Assembly: GCA_003141895.1 (NCBI GenBank)
Contig: PLNT01000025.1
Location: 1-62,347 of the forward strand
Length of the DNA: 62,347 bases
Direction: 5' to 3'
Origin: Bacteroidales bacterium
GTDB taxonomy: Bacteria; Bacteroidota; Bacteroidia; Bacteroidales; VadinHA17
Both the position numbers and the translations under genes were made by a program. Positions 23,559-36,634 of the stretch are shown here, piece by piece (the stretch's first letter is position 1; the number at the start of each line of letters is the position of its first letter). The notes below the pieces were generated by a model, which was given only the letters and a program-made list of their open reading frames with translations, was not told where the DNA came from and searched no databases.

Positions 23559-25403
23559 ATGGGTAAAAAATCAGAAGTCATCGAACGGGAAGAAGTGGTT
23601 ATTCGTTTTTCAGGAGATTCGGGTGATGGTATGCAACTGACAGGAACTCTGTTCTCAGATACGGCCGCCTTGTTCGGTAATGATTTATCAACTTTCCCTG
23701 ATTATCCTGCCGAGATCAGAGCGCCTCAGGGTACCGTGGGAGGGGTTTCAGGTTTCCAGGTGCATCTTGGTCATTCAAAAATTAATACTCCAGGCGATTT
23801 TTCCGATGTGTTGGTTGCTATGAATCCTGCAGCTATTAAAGCAAATGCTAAATGGATCAAACCGGGCGGGACAATTATTTACGATGAAGGAAATTTTACC
23901 GAAAAAAATATTGAGAAAGCCGGTTATCTGAAAGATCCGATATCTGAAGAAAATCTGGAGAATTATAATGTGATAGCAGCTCCCATTTCTTCCATGGTAA
24001 AAGAAGCCCTTAAGGACTTTGGACTTGATCCGAAATCTGTTCTGAGAACAAAAAACATGTTTGCATTGGGAATGGTGTACTGGCTTTTTGACCGTCAGCT
24101 TAAGTATACGGAAGATTATTTTGAGAAAAAGTTTAAGAATAAACCTGGCATGGCTGAAGCAAATAAGGTTGCTTTAAGAGCAGGTTATTATTATGCTGAG
24201 ACTATAGAGGCACTGACTCCTACTTATAAAATTCTTCCTGCTGAGATAGCAAAAGGTACGTATCGTAATATTAATGGAAATTCAGCGACCGCATGGGGTT
24301 TTATGGCTGCAGCAGAAAAAGCCGGGCTGGATCTTTTCATCGGATCATATCCTATCACCCCGGCAACAGGAATACTGGAAGAGCTGGCCGCCCGTAAAGA
24401 TCTGGGTGTTAAGAGTTTTCAGGCTGAGGATGAAATAGCCGGTATTTGCACTTCTCTTGGTGCAAGTTTTGCCGGACATCTCGCTGTCACTTCGACTTCC
24501 GGACCGGGTCTGGCCCTTAAATCAGAAGCTATCGGTCTTGCTGTAATGGCGGAACTTCCAATTGTGATTATTAACGTACAAAGAGGAGGTCCCTCTACAG
24601 GTCTTCCAACCAAGACGGAACAGACTGACCTTATGCAGGCTCTCTATGGCCGCAATGGTGAATGCCCAGTTGTTGTTATTGCATCAAGTACGCCATCGGA
24701 TTGTTTCCATTTTGCTTTTGAAGCCGCCAGAATTGCATTGGAGCATATGACTCCCGTTTTGCTCCTTTCAGACAGTTATCTTGCCAATGGAACAGAACCC
24801 TGGCGTATACCGGAAATGAAAGAGCTTCCAAAAATTAAACCCCCGTTCGCTGATAAGTCAGAAATTCCTTTTTTACCGTATAAGCGCGATGATGACAAAC
24901 TCGCCCGGAAATGGGCAATCCCTGGAATACCAGGTTTGGAACACAGGATCGGAGGTCTGGAGAAAACAGTTAAAGGAACGGTTTCATATGTTCCTGAAAA
25001 TCATGAAGAAATGGTAAAGCTGAGAGCTGAGAAAGTTGCACGTGTTGTGCACGAAATACCAAGTCTTGAAGTTTATGGCGCCAAAACCGGAGATTTACTC
25101 GTTGTAGGTTGGGGAGGATCTTATGGATATCTGATTACAGCTGTCCGTGAATTACAGGAAGAAGGACACAAAGTAAGCCTGGTGAATTTCAACTATATAA
25201 ATCCGATGCCATGGAATGTAAAGGCCGTTTTCAGCAAATTCAAAAAGATTGTTGTATGCGAATTAAACATGGGACAATTTGCTGATTATTTGCGCATAAA
25301 ACATCAGGAGTTTAAATACGAACAATTAAATAAGATTCAGGGTCTCCCGTTTACTGTGAACGATATTAAGGAAAAATGCATCAAATTGCTGGAGGGTAAA
25401 TAA
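23559..25403 (+). CDS. korA: 2-oxoacid:ferredoxin oxidoreductase, fused gamma-alpha subunit
   Basis: Part of a CoA- and ferredoxin-dependent 2-oxoacid oxidoreductase, most likely for 2-oxoglutarate. The 614-residue protein starts with the gamma domain (residues ~10-195: VVIRFSGDSGDGMQLTG, APQGTVGGVSGF) and continues with the alpha domain (TAWGFMAAAEKAGLDLFIGS, YPITPATGILEELA) and a C-terminal transketolase-like domain. The fusion is the KorA type. It is followed one base later by korB. The substrate is inferred from the fused layout; pyruvate or branched-chain oxoacids are not excluded. Confidence 0.93.
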   Translation: MGKKSEVIEREEVVIRFSGDSGDGMQLTGTLFSDTAALFGNDLSTFPDYPAEIRAPQGTVGGVSGFQVHLGHSKINTPGDFSDVLVAMNPAAIKANAKWIKPGGTIIYDEGNFTEKNIEKAGYLKDPISEENLENYNVIAAPISSMVKEALKDFGLDPKSVLRTKNMFALGMVYWLFDRQLKYTEDYFEKKFKNKPGMAEANKVALRAGYYYAETIEALTPTYKILPAEIAKGTYRNINGNSATAWGFMAAAEKAGLDLFIGSYPITPATGILEELAARKDLGVKSFQAEDEIAGICTSLGASFAGHLAVTSTSGPGLALKSEAIGLAVMAELPIVIINVQRGGPSTGLPTKTEQTDLMQALYGRNGECPVVVIASSTPSDCFHFAFEAARIALEHMTPVLLLSDSYLANGTEPWRIPEMKELPKIKPPFADKSEIPFLPYKRDDDKLARKWAIPGIPGLEHRIGGLEKTVKGTVSYVPENHEEMVKLRAEKVARVVHEIPSLEVYGAKTGDLLVVGWGGSYGYLITAVRELQEEGHKVSLVNFNYINPMPWNVKAVFSKFKKIVVCELNMGQFADYLRIKHQEFKYEQLNKIQGLPFTVNDIKEKCIKLLEGK

Positions 25404-25404
25404 A

Positions 25405-26430
25405 ATGACAGAAACAACAGTTTTTAAATATACCGCAAAAGATTTTAAAAGTGATCAGGAAGTAAGATGGTGTCCGGGCTGTGGTGATCATGCCGTTCTG
25501 AGTTCTGTTCAGAGAGCTCTCGCTGAACTGAATATTTCTAAAGAGAAATTTGCTTTTATTTCAGGAATAGGTTGTTCATCACGGTTTCCGTATTACATGG
25601 ATACTTATGGTTTTCATAGTATACATGGACGTGCAACAGCAATTGCCTCAGGGGTAAAGACTGCTAATCCCGAATTATCAGTTTGGCAGATTACAGGTGA
25701 TGGAGATGCTCTGGCGATTGGAGGTAATCACTTTATTCATGCCATAAGGCGTAATATTGATATCAATATTATTCTGTTCAATAATGAAATCTACGGCCTT
25801 ACGAAAGGTCAGTATTCCCCCACTTCAAATAAAGGTCTTGTAACAAAAACATCTCCGTTTGGTACTGTTGAAGAACCATTTTCAGTCGGTGAACTTGTAA
25901 TCGGAGCGAAGGGGAAATTTTTTGCGCGTACTATCGACACAAATATCAATCTGTCGACTCAGATTTACATTGAAGCTGCAAAACATAAGGGAACTTCAGT
26001 AATAGAAGTTCTTCAGAACTGCGTTATTTTTAATGATGGTATTCACGATACTATAGCCGAAAAAGAGGTAAGAGACGACAGAACTCTGATTCTGAAACAT
26101 GGGCAGCCAATGATTTTTGGTAAAAATAATGACAAGGGCCTCATACTTGAAGGTTGCAGAAAGCTTAAAGCTGTGAAGATCGGCGAGAATGGAATTACTG
26201 AAAAGAACATCCTCATTCACGATGCCAATGAACCAAATCCCGGAATCCAGTATATGCTGGCTAATATGAAATATCCTGAATATCCTGTAGCTCTGGGAGT
26301 TATTAGATCGGTTGAAGGGCCTACCTATGAGATGTCAGTGAAAGAACAGATTGAAGGAGTTAAAAAGACTTCTAAAATCAAGTGCATGGATGACCTTCTG
26401 AAGAGTGGTTCAACCTGGAGCGTAGGATAG
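25405..26430 (+). CDS. korB: 2-oxoacid:ferredoxin oxidoreductase, beta subunit
   Basis: Thiamine-diphosphate and iron-sulfur subunit of the KorAB enzyme. It shows VRWCPGCGDHAVL near residue 20 (first cluster cysteines), SGIGCSSRFPYYM near 52 and the ThDP site GDGDALAIGGNHFIHA near 98 with FNNEIYGLTKGQ near 129. The 341-residue length is typical. A GGAGGG sequence just upstream of its ATG is a rare Shine-Dalgarno-like site for this phylum. A 17-base palindrome follows the stop. Confidence 0.94.
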   Translation: MTETTVFKYTAKDFKSDQEVRWCPGCGDHAVLSSVQRALAELNISKEKFAFISGIGCSSRFPYYMDTYGFHSIHGRATAIASGVKTANPELSVWQITGDGDALAIGGNHFIHAIRRNIDINIILFNNEIYGLTKGQYSPTSNKGLVTKTSPFGTVEEPFSVGELVIGAKGKFFARTIDTNINLSTQIYIEAAKHKGTSVIEVLQNCVIFNDGIHDTIAEKEVRDDRTLILKHGQPMIFGKNNDKGLILEGCRKLKAVKIGENGITEKNILIHDANEPNPGIQYMLANMKYPEYPVALGVIRSVEGPTYEMSVKEQIEGVKKTSKIKCMDDLLKSGSTWSVG

Positions 26431-26441
26431 TCCCTTTTAAA

Positions 26442-26458
26442 ACCTGTTTCAAACAGGT
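26442..26458. promoter_or_regulatory. Perfect palindrome before the PEP-binding gene
   Basis: ACCTGTTT-C-AAACAGGT, a perfect inverted repeat with a single-base centre, lies between korB and the next gene (10 bases before its ATG). It lacks a T tail, so it is not a classic terminator. It could be an operator, or an mRNA hairpin near the start codon. Confidence 0.4.
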
Positions 26459-26467
26459 ATTGTGCCA

Positions 26468-29400
26468 ATGGATGAAATGACTCAAAATAGTCCGGAATAT
26501 AACCGCTTGCTGCATGATCAACGTGAACGGTTAAAGGAGCTGGCATGCATAAACAGTACTACATCTATTCTGAAAGAGTTCAAACCCCTTGAAGAATCAA
26601 TACAGCAAATAGTGCTTCTTCTTCCGGCCGCCTGGCAGTATCCTGAATACACGGTTGCACGTATAAGATTCATGAGGAAGGATTTTGAGTCTGTAGATTT
26701 CAGGGAAACAAACTGGAAAATGATTCAGGAATTCATCACCATTGATGATGAAAAAGGAACAATTGAGATTTATTATACAACTGAATTTAATAATGAAAAC
26801 GAAGGTCCTTTTTTAAAAGAGGAACGGGATCTCATTCAGAATATAGCAAGTCTGTTGACCGGATATATTAACAGTTATAAAGCGAGAGATATTATCAGAC
26901 TGTCGCAGCTTGTTCAAAAAGAAGAGGAAGATATAAAAGATGTCTCAAGCAGGAAGCTTCTCCAGAAATTTCTTGATCGTCATAATGCCGAAAGAGATGT
27001 CTTTCACGACCTTCAGCCATTCAAAGTAAAAGAGATACTTCTTGTTGCCAATCTGTACGATGCATACTCAATAGAAGGGGAAGGACGGTTTTCGGACCAT
27101 ATGCTGGGAGAATATTATCAGTTGAGTCTGACATCAATACCCAGGGTTACCGGAGTCTCTGGCGAGGACGAAGCATTTGCCAGGTTGAAAGCCCGTCATT
27201 ACGATATGATCATAATAATGATCGGGGTTGATAAAGAGATCCCTATGATTCTCTGTAAAAAGATCAAGGAAAAGTATCCGTACATTCCTACATTCCTCCT
27301 GCTTAATAACCCTGGTGATGTATCCTTTGTAAAAAAACAGAAATCTATCGGAATACCTTTTGACAACTATTTTGTGTGGACCGGTGAATCGAAAGTTTTC
27401 TTTGCAATGGTAAAGCTCCTCGAAGATAAGGTAAACGTGGAGAATGATACTAAAAAAGGACTGACCAGAGTAATATTGCTGATTGAAGATTCTGCATCAT
27501 ACTATTCAAGTTATTTGCCAATGCTTTATACCCTGGTTATGGAGCAGACCAGAAACCTCATAGAGGATGTTTCAACCGATGAATTATACAAAGTGCTTAA
27601 ACTCAGGGCACGACCAAAGATCCTTCTTGCGTCGGATTATGAAGATTCAATCACAATTTACAACAAATACAAGGATAGCCTTTTGTGTGTCATTTCAGAT
27701 ATGAGGTTCCCTAAGAATGGTGTTATGAATGATATGGCCGGATTCGAGCTTATCAAACATATTAAAAAAGATTTTCCAAACCTTCCATCTGTCCTGCAGT
27801 CATCAGATCCGGAGAATGCAAAGTTTGCACATTCTTTGAAATCGAATTTTATAAATAAAAATTCTGAAAGCCTTCTTCAGGATCTCAAATCGTTTATAAA
27901 TTATTACCTGGGATTTGGACATTTTGTTTACAGGGATACAAAAGGCCGTCAGATAGCCGTAGCCAAATCAATGAAAGAATTTGAGGCATATCTTCAGACT
28001 GTGCCGGAAGATTCTCTCGTTTACCACTCAATGAAAAATCATTTTTCGCTCTGGCTGATGGCAAGAGGAGAAGTGAAAATCGCAAAAATGATTAATCCGA
28101 TAGCTGTATCGGACTTCAATAGCCTCAAAGAACTCCGGGAATTCCTCATCGATATCATAAGGAAACGTCGGAGAGAAATGAACAAGGGTAAAGTTGTAAA
28201 TTTTGAAGAATCTGCGGTAATTGATGAGACAAACATTGTAAGCCTTTCAGGCGGTTCTCTTGGAGGAAAAGGCCGTGGCCTTGCATTTGTCAATACACTC
28301 ATTTATAGTTTTGAACTCGGCCGCTTACTCCCGGGAATAAATATCAAGACACCTGTGACTGCAATTATCGGGACGGATGAATTTGATATGTTCATGGAAA
28401 GAAATCATCTGTGGGATAAAGTGAAATCAGAAAAGGACTATGTCACTCTTCAGAAATATTTCCTTGAAGGCAGTCTGAGCTATACTCTGGAAAAAGAGCT
28501 CAGGATATTTATCCGGCTCATAAATAAACCATTAGCAGTACGTTCATCCAGTCTGTTTGAAGATTCAATGAGTCAGCCATTCTCAGGCATTTTTGGAACT
28601 TATCTTCTTCCGAATAATCATTCGGAACCTGAGATTCGCCTGAAGCAATTATCTGAAGCTATCAAACTCGTCTTCTCGTCTATATACTCGCGGAATGCCC
28701 GCACCTATTTTGAGGCTATTAATTATAAGGTTGAACAGGAAAAGATGGCCGTGGTCATACAGGAAGTTGTAGGCAATCGGTTTGAAGATGCATTTTACCC
28801 GCATATTAGCGGAACTGCTCAGTCATTCAATTTTTATCCGGTATCTCATATGAAACCCCCCGATGGATTTGCGGTAATGGCAGTTGGCCTGGGACACTAT
28901 GTTGTTGAGGGAGAAAGGGCATTCCGGTTCTCACCTGCTTATCCTTCACTTGATATTATTTCACATAAAGATCTTTATAAAAATTCACAGGTTATGTTCT
29001 ATGCTGTTGATATGGCTAAAAGAGAACTCAACCTTCTGGAAGGTGAAAATGCCGGGCTCGTGACTCTCGATATCTCTCATGCAGAAAAGCACGGAACGCT
29101 TAAACATTCAGCCTCAGTTCTGAATATGGATAACGATACAATTATCCCGGGACTGGATGCAGCAGGTCCTCGGGTAATAAATTTTGCTGATATCCTGAAG
29201 TATGATTATATTCCCCTTGCTTCTACACTCAGGGTAGTACTCGATGTTGTAACGGAAGCCTTTGGTACACCAGTTGAAATCGAATTTGCTGTTGACCTTA
29301 CAAAAGATAAAGACGGAAATGCTTCATTCTATTTACTTCAAATAAAACCTCTTGTGGGAAACGGAGCAGGATACTCAATTGATGCAGACAGTATTAACAA

Positions 29401-29914
29401 CGAAAATACCATTCTCATTACCAAAAAGAGCATGGGTAACGGTGTCATTGATGATATAACAGATTTCATCTATCTGATTCCTGAAAAATTCAACAACAAA
29501 CTGACAAATGAAATGGCTGAGGAAATTGATGCGATGAATGAAAAGATGCTTCAGGAAAATCGCAAATATGTACTTCTGGGTCCAGGAAGATGGGGAACAA
29601 GAGACAGGTTCCTGGGGATACCTGTTGTATGGCCTCAGATCTCGAATGCAAAAATTATCGTTGAAGTTGGACTCCCTGATTTCCACGTGGATGCATCACT
29701 TGGCTCACATTTCTTTCATAATGTCACTTCAATGAACGTGGGATATTTTTCAATTAACCATGAATCAAATGACGGATCCATCATGTGGGACAAACTTAAG
29801 GATCAGAAGATTATTGAAGACGGTAAATTCTTCCGGCATATAAGGTTCAAAAAGCCTTTGCTTATACGGATGGATGGGAAAAAAGGCATGGCAGTAATCT
29901 CATTGAATAATTAA
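26468..29914 (+). CDS. GAF/receiver-like/PEP-pyruvate-binding fusion protein A
   Basis: Very large cytoplasmic protein (1148 residues), function unknown. Residues ~1-145 resemble the coiled-coil plus GAF module of Bacteroidetes histidine kinases (LKELACINSTTSILKE, PAAWQYPEYTVARIRF). Two receiver-like modules follow (~185-305 and ~335-480); the second keeps VILLIEDS, the Asp in VISDMRFP and the Lys in FINKNSE. Residues ~590-970 are a PPDK/PEP-synthase N-terminal ATP-grasp domain (GGSLGGKGRGLAF, LAVRSSSLFEDS, FYLLQIKPL). The phosphohistidine swivel and TIM-barrel of PEP synthase are absent; instead a conserved end domain has LLGPGRWGTRD near 1037 and GSHFFHNV near 1080. ATG at 26468 chosen over GTG at 26462. 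Likely cotranscribed with the next gene, 10 bases on. Confidence 0.85.
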   Translation: MDEMTQNSPEYNRLLHDQRERLKELACINSTTSILKEFKPLEESIQQIVLLLPAAWQYPEYTVARIRFMRKDFESVDFRETNWKMIQEFITIDDEKGTIEIYYTTEFNNENEGPFLKEERDLIQNIASLLTGYINSYKARDIIRLSQLVQKEEEDIKDVSSRKLLQKFLDRHNAERDVFHDLQPFKVKEILLVANLYDAYSIEGEGRFSDHMLGEYYQLSLTSIPRVTGVSGEDEAFARLKARHYDMIIIMIGVDKEIPMILCKKIKEKYPYIPTFLLLNNPGDVSFVKKQKSIGIPFDNYFVWTGESKVFFAMVKLLEDKVNVENDTKKGLTRVILLIEDSASYYSSYLPMLYTLVMEQTRNLIEDVSTDELYKVLKLRARPKILLASDYEDSITIYNKYKDSLLCVISDMRFPKNGVMNDMAGFELIKHIKKDFPNLPSVLQSSDPENAKFAHSLKSNFINKNSESLLQDLKSFINYYLGFGHFVYRDTKGRQIAVAKSMKEFEAYLQTVPEDSLVYHSMKNHFSLWLMARGEVKIAKMINPIAVSDFNSLKELREFLIDIIRKRRREMNKGKVVNFEESAVIDETNIVSLSGGSLGGKGRGLAFVNTLIYSFELGRLLPGINIKTPVTAIIGTDEFDMFMERNHLWDKVKSEKDYVTLQKYFLEGSLSYTLEKELRIFIRLINKPLAVRSSSLFEDSMSQPFSGIFGTYLLPNNHSEPEIRLKQLSEAIKLVFSSIYSRNARTYFEAINYKVEQEKMAVVIQEVVGNRFEDAFYPHISGTAQSFNFYPVSHMKPPDGFAVMAVGLGHYVVEGERAFRFSPAYPSLDIISHKDLYKNSQVMFYAVDMAKRELNLLEGENAGLVTLDISHAEKHGTLKHSASVLNMDNDTIIPGLDAAGPRVINFADILKYDYIPLASTLRVVLDVVTEAFGTPVEIEFAVDLTKDKDGNASFYLLQIKPLVGNGAGYSIDADSINNENTILITKKSMGNGVIDDITDFIYLIPEKFNNKLTNEMAEEIDAMNEKMLQENRKYVLLGPGRWGTRDRFLGIPVVWPQISNAKIIVEVGLPDFHVDASLGSHFFHNVTSMNVGYFSINHESNDGSIMWDKLKDQKIIEDGKFFRHIRFKKPLLIRMDGKKGMAVISLNN

Positions 29915-29924
29915 TAAAAGCAGT

Positions 29925-32897
29925 ATGAACATTATTGAGGGAATTCTTGATCTGCAACAGTATGATTTTACCGATACTTCCTTCGACCTCCTGATGCAGA
30001 GGCGAATTCATCGTGTTCTTGTGATATGCAGTAATTATGATAACTACATGCTTGAAGAGGATGGCAGGATTGATGAACAGATTTTCAATGAATATGCCTC
30101 TTTAAACCTGCGATATCCGCCTACTTTTGTTCAGACTGATAATGCTGAAGATGCTTTCAGAATTCTTCAGGAAGGGAATATTGATCTGGTTATCTCAATG
30201 TTGAGCCTTAAGGGGACTGATGTATTTGCACTTGCAAAAAAAATCAAAACAAAATATGAAAACATACCAATAGTTGTACTTACCTATTTTTCAAGGGAGG
30301 TATCTCTGCGGCTTGAGGGAGAGGATCTGAGTGCAATCGATTATGTGTTTTGCTGGCTCGGCGACGCCTCTCTTATACTGGCTATCATTAAACTTATAGA
30401 AGACAAGATGAACGCCGATTACGATATAGAACATATTGGTGTTCAAGCGATCATCCTGGTTGAAAACTCCATCAGGTATATTTCATCTTATCTTCCTAAT
30501 ATATACAGGATTATATTATTGCAATCACTTGATTTTCAGCGAGAGGCTCTGAATGAACATCAAAGGATGCTCAAAATGAGAGGAAGGCCAAAAATACTCC
30601 TTGCGAATAATTACAATGATGCGCTAAGTCTTTATAAGAAATATAAGTACAACGTACTGGGCGTTATATCTGATATAAGTTACAAAAGAGATAACATTAC
30701 TGATGAGAGTGCAGGTATTGAGCTTTGTAAAGCCGTTATGGCAGACGACGACAAAGTGCCCTTCCTGATACAATCATCAAGTACAACGCATAAGAAAGCA
30801 GCTGAAGAACTCGGAGCAGGTTTCATAAATAAGTACTCCAAATCTTTGTCCCTAGAACTCAGGAACTTTATTATTCAGTATCTAGCATTCGGACCATTTG
30901 TATTCAGAAATCCTGTAACTCTCGAACCAATTGCCATTGCAACAGATCTTCAGAGTCTTCAGCAGAAACTCCTTACGATCCCCGATAATACTCTTGAATA
31001 TCATGCTACCCGTAACCATTTTTCGAAATGGTTAAACGCAAGAGCTCTGTTTCCTGTTGCCCAGATGTTTAAATATATCAGGAAAGAGGATTTTGAAACA
31101 ATGGACGAGATGAGGCGTTTTCTATATGTCGCAATTTCGAGCTTCAGACTTGGAAAGGGCAGGGGAGTGATAGCAAAATTTGACAAAACCAGCTTTGATG
31201 AATATCAGATATTTTCACGTATAGGTGAAGGATCAATCGGAGGAAAAGCCAGGGGTCTGGCTTTTATAAACAGTATAATTAAAAACAACAAACTGTTTAA
31301 CAGATTTCCTGATGTTCTTATTACTATCCCCCGAACAGTCGTTTTAAGTACGGATATTTTTGATGAGTTTATGGATCAGAACAATCTGTATTCAATCGCA
31401 CTGTCTGATCTGACTGATGATGAGATACTAAACAGGTTTATTAATGCTGAACTGCCAGGACATGTTTACCAGGATTTCTACGCCTTCCTCGAAGTCTCAA
31501 GAAACTATCCGATAGCAGTGCGTTCATCGAGTAAATTAGAAGATTCTCACTATCAGCCTTTTGCCGGGATATATTCAACCTATATGATTCCTCGGCTTTC
31601 CGATAACAAGCTTATGGTTAAGATGTTGTCTGACGCCATAAAAGAAGTTTATGCTTCAGTATATTACAAGGCCAGTAAGGCATATATGACCGCTACGGCT
31701 AATGTTATAGATGAAGAAAAGATGGGAATTATATTACAGGAAGTGTGCGGCAGCAGGCATGGAGAAATATATTATCCCACATTATCTGGCGTAGCGCGAT
31801 CAATAAATTACTATCCTATAGGGTCGGAAAAGGCTGAAGATGGTATTGTTAATATTGCGTTCGGTCTGGGAAAGCTTATTGTTGAGGGCGGTATGTCGCT
31901 GAGATTTTCACCGAAATATCCAAAAAAAATACTTCAGCTTTCATCTCCTGATGCTGCTCTGAGAGATTCGCAGAAAGAATTTTGTGCACTCGATCTGAAT
32001 ATCAATAGTTTTATTCCTTCAACTGATGACGGGATTAATATACTCAGGATTGATATCAAAAACATTGAAAATGAAGCTGCACTGAAATATGTCGCTTCAA
32101 CTTACGACAGGAACAATAATGTTTTGCGCGACGGGATAAATTACCCGGGGAAACGGGTAATAACCTTTTCTAACATTCTTCAACATAAAACATTCCCGAT
32201 TGCTGAAATATTAAGTACGCTTCTGGAAATTGGCCAACAGGAAATGAATAATCCGATTGAAATTGAATTTGCTGCCAACCTGGAAACGCCTCCTGGAAAT
32301 CCGAAAATATTTAATTTTCTGCAGGTAAGGCCTATAGTTCATACCGAAGAAGCTCATAACATAAATCTGGATCATGTAAAGAAAGAACAGACAATAGTAT
32401 TTTCTGAATCGGCCCTTGGAAATGGACTCTTTAAAGGAATAAACGATCTGGTTTATATTAAACCGGAATCATTTAATGCCTCAAATAATAAAAATGTCGC
32501 ATTGGAAATTGAAAAGATTAACTCTTTGTTTGTAAAGCAGGGGAAAGGGTATGTGCTAATTGGTCCCGGAAGGTGGGGCTCCACTGATCCCTGGCTCGGA
32601 ATACCTGTTAAATGGCACCAGATTTCTGCTGCCAGGATTATTATTGAATCTGGATTGAAGAACTACAGGATAGATCCGAGTCAGGGTACGCATTTTTTTC
32701 AGAATCTAACCTCTTTCAGGGTAGGGTATTTTACAATTAATCCCTATATAAACGAAGGTTATTACGATGTTGAGTATCTGAATAAACTTAATGTAATTTA
32801 CGAGGACCGATATATCAGACATGTAAGGTTTGATAGCCCTCTGGAAATAATGATAGACGGCAAATCACACCATGGAGTTATTCTGAAACCAATATAA
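29925..32897 (+). CDS. Receiver-like/PEP-pyruvate-binding fusion protein B
   Basis: Paralogue of the preceding protein, 990 residues, lacking the GAF part. Receiver-like modules lie at ~25-150 (VLVICSNYDNYM, VLTYFSREVS) and ~175-330 (AIILVENS, VISDISYK, FINKYSKS). The ATP-grasp PEP/pyruvate-binding domain begins at GEGSIGGKARGLAF near residue 433, with IAVRSSSKLEDS near 528 and FLQVRPIV near 803. The end domain repeats the pattern LIGPGRWGSTD near 880 and GTHFFQNL near 920. Again there is no phosphohistidine or TIM-barrel domain, so it cannot be a complete PEP synthase. The two proteins may act as a pair. Automatic annotation as PEP synthase would be misleading. Confidence 0.85.
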   Translation: MNIIEGILDLQQYDFTDTSFDLLMQRRIHRVLVICSNYDNYMLEEDGRIDEQIFNEYASLNLRYPPTFVQTDNAEDAFRILQEGNIDLVISMLSLKGTDVFALAKKIKTKYENIPIVVLTYFSREVSLRLEGEDLSAIDYVFCWLGDASLILAIIKLIEDKMNADYDIEHIGVQAIILVENSIRYISSYLPNIYRIILLQSLDFQREALNEHQRMLKMRGRPKILLANNYNDALSLYKKYKYNVLGVISDISYKRDNITDESAGIELCKAVMADDDKVPFLIQSSSTTHKKAAEELGAGFINKYSKSLSLELRNFIIQYLAFGPFVFRNPVTLEPIAIATDLQSLQQKLLTIPDNTLEYHATRNHFSKWLNARALFPVAQMFKYIRKEDFETMDEMRRFLYVAISSFRLGKGRGVIAKFDKTSFDEYQIFSRIGEGSIGGKARGLAFINSIIKNNKLFNRFPDVLITIPRTVVLSTDIFDEFMDQNNLYSIALSDLTDDEILNRFINAELPGHVYQDFYAFLEVSRNYPIAVRSSSKLEDSHYQPFAGIYSTYMIPRLSDNKLMVKMLSDAIKEVYASVYYKASKAYMTATANVIDEEKMGIILQEVCGSRHGEIYYPTLSGVARSINYYPIGSEKAEDGIVNIAFGLGKLIVEGGMSLRFSPKYPKKILQLSSPDAALRDSQKEFCALDLNINSFIPSTDDGINILRIDIKNIENEAALKYVASTYDRNNNVLRDGINYPGKRVITFSNILQHKTFPIAEILSTLLEIGQQEMNNPIEIEFAANLETPPGNPKIFNFLQVRPIVHTEEAHNINLDHVKKEQTIVFSESALGNGLFKGINDLVYIKPESFNASNNKNVALEIEKINSLFVKQGKGYVLIGPGRWGSTDPWLGIPVKWHQISAARIIIESGLKNYRIDPSQGTHFFQNLTSFRVGYFTINPYINEGYYDVEYLNKLNVIYEDRYIRHVRFDSPLEIMIDGKSHHGVILKPI

Positions 32898-35124: not shown

Positions 35125-35793
35125 ATGTCATTCAAAATATTGTATGTAACTGCAACCGCCGCTGAAGCCATTGCTCTTAAAAGAATCATTGAATTAAAGC
35201 CCGCTACCGGGAATAATTTTGAGATACTGTCTCTTGTAACAGGAGTCGGATCAGTTGCAACTGCCTGGGCAATGAAAAACTGGTTTGCAGTTAATGGGAA
35301 ACCCGATCTGGCAATCAATGGTGGAATTGCCGGAAGTTATACTGAAGAACTTATCCCGGGTGATGTAGTAATGACTTACACCGACTGTTTTGCAGATGCC
35401 GGCATAGAAGACAACGGAAATTATTTTACACTTTTTGAAGCAGGCTTGGCAAATGCAAACGAATTCCCGTATAAGGATGGTCGTTTATATTCAGATCCTG
35501 TATACTTTAATAAATTGAAGGATATTATTAAACCTGTAAAAGCAATAACTCTTAATACTGCTACCGGCTCGGAAATATCGAGAGCTAAATGGATGAAAAA
35601 ATTTAATCCTGACATTGAGACTTTGGAAGGCGCAACTTTTTTCTATATTTGCACACTTGAAGAAATTCCTTTTTTGGCCATAAGGGCTATCTCGAACAAG
35701 GTTGAACCACGAAATAAAAACAACTGGAACATTTCTCTTGCCCTTAATAATCTGTCAGGAAAGCTTATAGAGATACTTTTAACACTGGGATGA
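35125..35793 (+). CDS. mqnB: Futalosine hydrolase
   Basis: Nucleosidase that cleaves futalosine (hypoxanthine release) in the alternative menaquinone pathway. Its MTA/SAH-nucleosidase-like fold is marked by ILYVTATAAEAIAL at the start, the nucleoside-phosphorylase-like GGIAGSYTEELIPGDVV near residue 72, and ETLEGATFFYIC near 172 (substrate Glu). The 222-residue length is typical. It is followed after 4 bases by mqnD, which supports the assignment over a general MTA nucleosidase. Confidence 0.92.
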   Translation: MSFKILYVTATAAEAIALKRIIELKPATGNNFEILSLVTGVGSVATAWAMKNWFAVNGKPDLAINGGIAGSYTEELIPGDVVMTYTDCFADAGIEDNGNYFTLFEAGLANANEFPYKDGRLYSDPVYFNKLKDIIKPVKAITLNTATGSEISRAKWMKKFNPDIETLEGATFFYICTLEEIPFLAIRAISNKVEPRNKNNWNISLALNNLSGKLIEILLTLG

Positions 35794-35797
35794 ATAT

Positions 35798-36634
35798 ATG
35801 AGATTAAGTTTGGGTTTTTCGCCATGTCCGAATGATACATTTATTTTTGATGCGATGGTGCATGGAAGAATTGATACGGAAGGACTGGAATTTGATTATT
35901 TTCTCACAGATGTTGAAGAATTAAACAGGAAGGCTTTGTCTTCCGATGTTGATATTACAAAGATAAGCTATCATGCTTATGCTTATGTTTCACAAAACTA
36001 TCTGATTCTCGATGCAGGGAGTGCCCTTGGGCACAGAAACGGACCACTTCTTATAAGTAAACGCAAGTTAGAAATTTCTGATCTGCCAGGTCTGAAAATA
36101 GCAATTCCCGGTAAGTATACTACTGCAAATCTTCTTTTTAGTATAGCCTGGCCGGAAATCGTCAATAAAAAAGAATACATTTTTTCGAAAATAGAAGATG
36201 CCATCCTTGAAGATGAAGTTGATGCCGGACTTATAATCCACGAAAACAGATTTACATATTATAAAAGAGGCCTTCAAAAATTAGCCGATATGGGTGAATA
36301 CTGGGAATCACTTACTGGTCTTCCCGTACCGCTTGGGGCAATTGTTATAAATAGAAATATTCCTGATGATATTGCTCTGAAGGTTAACAGGGTAGTGCGA
36401 AGAAGTCTTGAATACGCTTACAAAGATTCGTTTGCTTCTTACGATTTTGTCTTCGGAAATGCCAGGGAGATGGATAGTACAATTATGAATAACCACATCA
36501 AATTATTCGTGAATGAATTTACACTTAACCTCGGAAGCAAAGGCAGAGAAGCTATAGTTGAACTATTCCGGTATGCTGTAGAGAAAGGTGTTATCGCGCG
36601 CGTTCCGGAAAGGATTTTCCTTACTTCCCTTTAA
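35798..36634 (+). CDS. mqnD: 1,4-dihydroxy-6-naphthoate synthase
   Basis: Acts after futalosine hydrolysis to form 1,4-dihydroxy-6-naphthoate for menaquinone. It has a periplasmic-binding-like fold with the family start LGFSPCPNDTFIFDAMVHG, EELNRKAL near residue 46, the DVDITKISYHAYAYV block near 52 and a His in the GLIIHENRFTY block near 150. The 278-residue length is usual. MqnA, MqnC and MqnE are not in this window and should lie elsewhere. Confidence 0.94.
   Translation: MRLSLGFSPCPNDTFIFDAMVHGRIDTEGLEFDYFLTDVEELNRKALSSDVDITKISYHAYAYVSQNYLILDAGSALGHRNGPLLISKRKLEISDLPGLKIAIPGKYTTANLLFSIAWPEIVNKKEYIFSKIEDAILEDEVDAGLIIHENRFTYYKRGLQKLADMGEYWESLTGLPVPLGAIVINRNIPDDIALKVNRVVRRSLEYAYKDSFASYDFVFGNAREMDSTIMNNHIKLFVNEFTLNLGSKGREAIVELFRYAVEKGVIARVPERIFLTSL

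Follow-up and report, generated by a model that had tools for sequence, protein, structure and literature searches.

In mycobacteria, a small FHA protein, GarA, acts as a dedicated signalling protein that controls both glutamate dehydrogenase (GDH) and a 2-oxoglutarate-consuming enzyme, a role of the kind proposed here for two proteins, A and B, to which GarA is unrelated. Rifampin phosphotransferase (RPH; PDB 5hv3) has in its ATP-grasp domain a Lys, an Arg and a Thr that A and B also have. The sections of the RPH study drawn on here report that changes of Lys22, Arg117 or Thr136 abolished resistance, that ATP was nevertheless split by the variants at Arg117 and Thr136, and that the Mg ligand Glu297 was dispensable (PMC4844700). 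Another comparable case is PspR of Haloferax, a PEP-synthase-like protein in the role of a regulator; unlike A and B, it has ATP-binding, His and predicted DNA-binding domains and was shown to bind a promoter, and receivers are not mentioned in the part of the source used here (PMC10948481). Two-receiver response regulators (PleD, 3luf) resemble the N-terminal half of B, which is a double receiver by Foldseek; unlike in PleD, the output of A and B is not GGDEF but an ATP-grasp domain followed by an unmatched domain.

Bacteroides GDH was reportedly found in 1987 to be reversibly inactivated in vivo, and to our knowledge the control of its activity after synthesis is still open. The portion of PMC4539542 drawn on here describes, for B. 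fragilis, an NAD(P)H-dependent GDH that is inhibited at high organic nitrogen while an NADH-dependent GDH rises, and cites a paper of 1996 whose title places trans-acting gene(s) downstream of Bacteroides gdhA. For the NADP-GDH of Prevotella ruminicola, 24.3 versus 4.6 nmol/mg/min were given for excess versus limiting ammonium, figures that we do not use as evidence because the direction of the transcript change is ambiguous in the part of that source cited (PMC5552732).

Here we analyse a window, a whole stretch of 62,347 nucleotides from a Bacteroidales bacterium, in which the genes for A and B stand in tandem behind korAB. Loci and genomes are given by our own L and G numbers where they have to be told apart.

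Results

Two multidomain paralogues behind korAB

Both open reading frames lie where the earlier note on this DNA had placed them, A with 1148 and B with 990 residues. The features are as follows (all on the + strand; residues of A are counted from the ATG at 26468).

23559..25403, +, korA, 2-oxoacid:acceptor oxidoreductase alpha subunit, candidate target (NCBIfam TIGR03710, 655 bits against a cut-off of 483)
25405..26430, +, korB, 2-oxoacid:ferredoxin oxidoreductase beta subunit (PRK11866 and TIGR02177 score best in NCBIfam, neither reaching its cut-off)
26468..29914, +, protein A, 1148 aa, ATG start (ORF; begins 37 bp 3' of korB)
26510..26866 (approximate limits), +, A: N-terminal sensor-like module of ~130 residues (without a Pfam match)
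27029..27451 (approximate limits), +, A: receiver 1, a pseudo-receiver without Asp on the phospho-acceptor strand (alignment)
27464..27907 (approximate limits), +, A: receiver 2, with E340/D341, D411, S445 and K464 (Pfam, alignment)
27962..28189, +, A: DUF5752-like linker (PF19027, E 7.1e-6)
28256..29359, +, A: PPDK_N ATP-grasp domain, with K601, R692, T711, E939, Q958 and K960 (Pfam, alignment)
29354..29911, +, A: C-terminal domain, with GPGRWG and GSHFF (alignment)
29925..32897, +, protein B, 990 aa (ORF; begins 10 bp 3' of A)
30009..30434 (approximate limits), +, B: receiver 1, a pseudo-receiver (Pfam, model, alignment)
30441..30884 (approximate limits), +, B: receiver 2, with E180, N181, D250, S284 and K303 (Pfam, model, alignment)
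31233..32369, +, B: PPDK_N ATP-grasp domain, with K441, R533, T552, E781, Q800 and R802 (Pfam, Foldseek, alignment)
32337..32894, +, B: C-terminal domain, with GPGRWG (880-885), D888, E908, S919 and GTHFF (921-925) (alignment, predicted fold)

The paralogues thus have a common layout of two receivers, a helical linker, the PPDK_N ATP-grasp domain and the C-terminal domain; an alternative GTG start at 26462 would give a protein A of 1150 residues. They are not chance reading frames, because dozens of Bacteroidota genomes encode relatives of full length. That they follow korAB also holds: korA passes its model, and korB, below the cut-offs, has 2-oxoacid:ferredoxin oxidoreductase beta subunits as its best models. 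The 37-bp gap between korB and A contains a perfect inverted repeat (26442-26458, 8+1+8), which is absent from L085, the closest relative that shares this layout. A promoter scan was uninformative (25 sites against 32.8 expected). Further along the window, a futalosine pathway is probable at 35125-36634 as judged from its genes, one of which scores 116.5 bits, slightly below the cut-off of 124.7 of the futalosine hydrolase model; the next gene resembles menaquinone MqnD, as judged from a motif.

An ATP-grasp domain without a detected swivel or barrel

Pfam matched PPDK_N (PF01326) in A (E 6e-37) and in B (E 2.8e-36), and receivers in B over the curated cut-off (E 6.4e-11) and in A under it (E 4.9e-4). 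The membership in the PPDK_N family links both proteins to PEP synthase and pyruvate phosphate dikinase (PPDK); unlike these, neither chain gave a Pfam match to the phosphohistidine swivel (PF00391) or, at E<=1, to the PEP-utilising TIM barrel, and NCBIfam scores lay far below the cut-offs. The earlier note had argued that A and B cannot be PEP synthases, and the profiles, which found no phosphohistidine domain and no PEP barrel in either chain, support this. The only PF00391 domain over the cut-off in the window's genome belongs to a separate PPDK_N protein on contig C26. The partial NCBIfam matches, whose best ones include PEP synthase, PigC and RedH, cover the ATP-grasp part only.

The same note had called A and B GAF/receiver-like/PEP-binding proteins; the receivers stand by Pfam, and neither of the other two attributes was established. 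No GAF model matched A in Pfam at E<=1; the ~130-residue N-terminal module of A is found also on nucleotidyltransferase and Crp/Fnr proteins. As for PEP, a full-length B relative of Parabacteroides distasonis (WP_041525632.1, 53% identical) is labelled “PEP/pyruvate-binding domain-containing protein” in a record that names no function. Applied to A and B this label is a misnomer, because PPDK_N is, in Pfam's description, an AMP/ATP-binding domain. PEP or pyruvate is bound by the barrel, the very part missing here. A defence role was dismissed, there being no PADLOC match.

Invariant sites

In an alignment of 61 sequences (50 B and 11 A rows), the following residues, in B numbering, are invariant in 61/61: E180, D250, S284 and K303 in receiver 2; G439-G440-K441, R533, E539, D540, T552, E781 and Q800 in the ATP-grasp domain; and P881, GRWG (882-885), D888, G892, E908, S919, G921, H923, F924, F925 and N927 in the C-terminal domain. 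The earlier description of the ATP-grasp domain as apparently complete is borne out by the site residues checked, kept in all 61 members. The two motifs that it had placed about 40 residues apart at the C-terminus, GPGRWG and G[S/T]HFF, likewise recur in 61/61 except for the first G of GPGRWG, which is A in one sequence. In a wider 10-sequence alignment that takes in the short and ~1060-residue forms described below, GRWG, D, G, E, S, G and HFF are invariant, and P881 and N927 vary, the Pro of GPGRWG being replaced in three.

Receiver 1 has no Asp on its acceptor strand, whereas receiver 2 of both A and B has the response-regulator site set of acid pair, Asp, Ser/Thr and Lys, with Asn as the second acid in the window's B; this position, 181, is Asp in 47/50 B and 11/11 A rows. 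Position 802 is Arg in 50/50 B and Lys in 11/11 A rows (K960 in A). The equivalents of Lys22, Arg117 and Thr136 of RPH are K441, R533 and T552 of B, present in 61/61; we take K441 to be the Lys22 equivalent from the GGK motif, and the Arg and Thr were placed by HMM alignment to chain 5fbs.

Predicted structure and the C-terminal domain

An AlphaFold2 model of full-length B, made from the 61-sequence alignment, reached a mean pLDDT of 85.9 and a pTM of 0.77; residues 920-923, which include the conserved His, form one of three stretches with pLDDT below 50. Searched against the PDB with Foldseek, this model found RPH with AMPPNP (5hv3) first (E 1.1e-10) and double-receiver proteins next. Unlike RPH, A and B have no detected His swivel and no match to the rest of that enzyme, and carry receivers and an unrelated-looking C-terminal domain instead.

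The C-terminal ~180 residues matched nothing in Pfam or NCBIfam at E<=1 (for B, among the best 25 of 39 NCBIfam rows), no PDB sequence at E<0.2 and nothing in a viral structure library at E<=0.001. Modelled alone, the domain has a confident predicted fold (pLDDT 91.9, pTM 0.89), in which we discern by eye a Gly-rich strand, a helix, a strand, the invariant His before a helix, and a last DG hairpin. Its best Foldseek match in the PDB has an E-value of 8.6e-3, with a query TM-score of at most 0.33 among the best 50 of 569 matches. As the earlier note had it, then, the domain goes without a name: Pfam, NCBIfam, PDB sequence and Foldseek searches gave no identity. It was also considered as a diverged phosphohistidine swivel and rejected as such, since hhalign gave a probability of 0.1% against 10 Bacteroidota swivels and no swivel was among those best 50 of 569 matches; a very remote kinship is still conceivable. 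The invariant His (923 in B) sits in this unrelated-looking domain, unlike the C-terminal swivel His of RPH.

GDH and Kor genes adjoin the family

Gene slots around A and B genes were labelled by BLAST to reference proteins and counted by gene distance, in a named set of 80 loci and in a region survey of 59 loci of the window's order picked from the listing of A matches; loci cut by contig ends count as misses in both. GDH occupied 33/152 slots at distance 1, 8/137 at 2, 2/123 at 3 and 0/391 at 4-9 in the named set, and 22/116, 1/109, 0/104 and 0/247 in the survey. Kor subunits numbered 7, 8, 1, 1 and 2 at distances 1-5 in the named set and 4 and 4 at distances 1-2 in the survey, with none beyond in either (15/289 and 8/225 slots at distances 1-2). 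A GDH or Kor gene lay within two genes at 38/80 named and 24/59 surveyed loci, and over half of the loci (42/80 and 35/59) had neither. The neighbourhood survey that the earlier note had suggested thus finds A and B genes clustered by GDH or Kor across Bacteroidota.

The order korAB-A-B of the window recurs at L085, L091, L092, L104, L110 and L178, and at L097 with a 395-residue piece of A; korAB-B without A is found at L094, L124, L221 and L224, and at L200 the stretch fetched shows korAB-A and no B. Relative to GDH, the genes stand head-to-head, tail-to-tail or co-directionally, so the link is not one frozen operon. In Bacteroides, the genus to which G238 belongs, B is carried by 57/60 genomes, including 37/37 of good quality, and for 36/55 measured B genes a GDH is no more than 6 kb away; of these 36 close pairs, 35 are head-to-head and one is co-directional with the second GDH type, and 10 of the 36 B genes are also tail-to-tail with the other GDH type, which we take to be the gdhA of the 1996 study. 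In G230, of the same genus, the B protein is identical to that of Bacteroides pyogenes DSM 19673 (L009 and L118). The P. distasonis relative is head-to-head with gdhA, annotated “NADP-specific glutamate dehydrogenase”.

The two GDHs of the window's genome do not adjoin A and B but lie on a different contig (L169:4278-9156, contig C1 of G000); they fall one in each of the clades described below, with a DprA-like gene, assigned by eye, between them. KorA occurred in 67/69 family-positive genomes against 215/326 others, counts that were read by eye, ignore phylogeny and do not serve as main evidence.

A and B tend to keep to different GDH types

We built a tree from 62 GDHs with 400 or more residues, each assigned to its nearest A or B gene. 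One clade of 26 rows holds all 22 A-assigned GDHs, three B-assigned ones and one from the window's genome; the other, of 36 rows, holds 35 of the 38 B-assigned GDHs and the other GDH of the window's genome. The exceptions, three in all, come from two Lutibacter loci whose fetched stretches lack A and from a Delongbacteria record. The labels require 4 changes on the tree against a shuffled mean of 20, and 0/200 shuffles were as low, a comparison that concerns clustering only and is inflated by near-copies. The split itself was starred (100/99) on a midpoint-rooted tree with an unsettled bootstrap and long branches at L177 and L154.

At L121 and L138 the order is GDH - A - B - GDH, with one GDH of each type, and in G475, G479 and G482 an A-type and a B-type pair lie apart, each containing the GDH type proper to it; because some loci or genomes have both, the two types are paralogues. 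Five sampled A-adjacent GDHs pass NF006929 (NADP-specific) and fail NF010633, whereas five sampled B-adjacent ones pass both and score best with NF010633; the window genome's own two GDHs split likewise. The curated models therefore separate the types without settling the coenzyme of the second. At the Lutibacter loci L127 and L131, B stands between GDHs of both types, co-directionally and with no A in the fetched stretch; here a single regulator possibly serves both enzymes.

Distribution and other forms

Relatives of B at E<=1e-30 occur in 69/395 Bacteroidota genomes, 14 of which are positive solely by virtue of a remoter form (E 1e-38 to 1e-49); the remaining B matches listed are to receivers only. 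A was matched at E<=0.001 in 173/198 genomes of the window's order, B-type matches included. The named loci are the best 80 of at least 582 relatives, drawn from at least 589 pattern matches, and include Bacteroides, Phocaeicola, Parabacteroides, Prevotella, Lutibacter and Gillisia as well as records labelled Chlorobiota and Delongbacteria. A plasmid collection gave three B relatives only, one in a record of 1.77 Mb; plasmid cargo was rejected, as the examined relative's record looks chromosomal because it carries ruvC, rapZ and gdhA.

A short form of ~580 residues has PPDK_N and the C-terminal domain only. A ~1060-residue form combines the N-terminal module of A with PPDK_N and the C-terminal domain (L038:305-3487, L039:2641-5811, L040:3690-6869, L042:5845-9024); in L038 Pfam identifies a Pol-beta-type nucleotidyltransferase in it, which in L039 and L042 is recognised by its motif, the motif not being found in L040. 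This form directly adjoins a third GDH type of 428-429 residues in L039, L040 and L042, and the two share a gene run in L038, L045 and L046. Outside the window's order, L037, L047 and L048 each have two B-like genes alternating with two GDHs of the 446/453-residue type. At L037 a PAS histidine kinase ORF overlaps the 3' end of the B-type gene, with a LuxR-type regulator two ORFs further; this neighbour suggests that the receiver may be phosphorylated by a histidine kinase. At L172:6986-16273 and L171:3-7488 we find a run of A, a protein with the N-terminal module and a nucleotidyltransferase, a metallophosphoesterase, and B, followed in L172 by the module joined to a Crp/Fnr regulator, so that the module is common to three kinds of output; these runs hint at writer and eraser enzymes in one pathway.

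Discussion

The new fact is the GDH/korAB neighbourhood of the A and B genes across Bacteroidota; the open-access literature searched gave no description of the family or of its GDH link (subscription papers were outside the scope). The family is real and conserved, and its genomic context suggests its function. From an intact receiver, an ATP-grasp site and a conserved polar C-terminal domain beside 2-oxoglutarate enzymes, we lean towards A and B being regulators that are gated by a signal, use ATP and act on enzymes of the 2-oxoglutarate node. Because their genes repeatedly adjoin GDH or korAB, they would probably switch GDH or the 2-oxoglutarate oxidoreductase KorAB on and off using ATP, and the tendency of A and B to stand beside different GDH types indicates GDH/KOR as the target. 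Co-regulation or a shared pathway can also be the cause of such linkage.

In such a regulator, the input would arrive at receiver 2 through phosphorylation by a histidine kinase, or as a ligand at the N-terminal module of A. The ATP-grasp domain would bind ATP, and together with the C-terminal domain (GRWG, Asp, Glu, Ser, His) it would carry out either a phosphotransfer or an ATP-driven conformational switch. The activity of the cognate enzyme would be altered thereby, one GDH type by A and the second by B, or KorAB where the genes stand behind korAB, as in the window. A and B are probably phosphotransferases, a preference that we hold because residues required for transfer in a homologue are invariant; since the Arg and Thr variants of that homologue split ATP without conferring resistance, this conservation in A and B is no proof of transfer. 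From the linkage and the conserved sites we infer that GDH and KOR are the physical partners; the phosphate acceptor could then be a residue in either enzyme, and His923 is the putative carrier. In its fullest form the proposal is a PPDK-type protein kinase, in which phosphate from ATP would move through the ATP-grasp domain and the His of the C-terminal domain to GDH or KorAB, reversibly silencing it as the receiver dictates; A and B would then regulate two GDH types as a pair, and might correspond to the trans-acting factor(s) reported for Bacteroides GDH. This form we offer tentatively, as a conceivable scheme.

Were the ATP-grasp domain only to bind ATP or ADP, A and B would be energy sensors and non-covalent allosteric adaptors of GDH/KOR, for which GarA and PII, both adaptors of that sort, provide the model. 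The linkage data fit this equally, and no phospho-carrier domain was found by profiles, among the best 50 Foldseek matches or by hhalign; however, the transfer residues of RPH in 61/61 sequences and the invariant polar set of the C-terminal domain exceed what binding should need, and we regard such an adaptor as unlikely. Still less likely is a receiver-controlled small-molecule phosphotransferase or ligase in the manner of RPH or PigC, whose substrate would be some metabolite from the glutamate/2-oxoglutarate pathway. The antibiotic kinase that comes first in Foldseek and the partial NCBIfam matches to PEP synthase, PigC and RedH speak for it, but all these are confined to the ATP-grasp part, and neither the KOR linkage nor the preference of each paralogue for its own GDH type would be explained.

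The earlier note had proposed a signal-controlled kinase or dikinase with the partner paralogue as a possible acceptor. Its signal input is supported by the intact receiver 2. A relay with mutual phosphorylation of the two proteins, or with B as the substrate of A, we consider very improbable: the genes are 10 bp apart in the window and both occur in 16/80 named loci, not always adjacent, but B is in the fetched region at only 7/39 surveyed A loci (some regions stop at contig ends), the stretches fetched for the named Bacteroides and Prevotella loci contain B and no A, and the two paralogues tend to keep to different GDH types. We give equally little credence to a DNA-binding regulator, for which the PspR of PMC10948481 is a precedent and the head-to-head position of 21/22 A-assigned GDHs speaks, since Pfam matched no DNA-binding domain in A or B and the His domain with which PspR is modelled, in the part of that source used, has no match in them.

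If the preferred reading, a signal-gated regulator that uses ATP, is true, the family would put the PEP-synthase ATP-grasp domain to a new use and give receivers a new output, ending in a domain for which we found no known fold. GDH helps to set ammonia assimilation against amino-acid breakdown in Bacteroidota, the dominant gut genera included, and the A/B family is a specific, deletable candidate for its control, with a predicted target for each paralogue.
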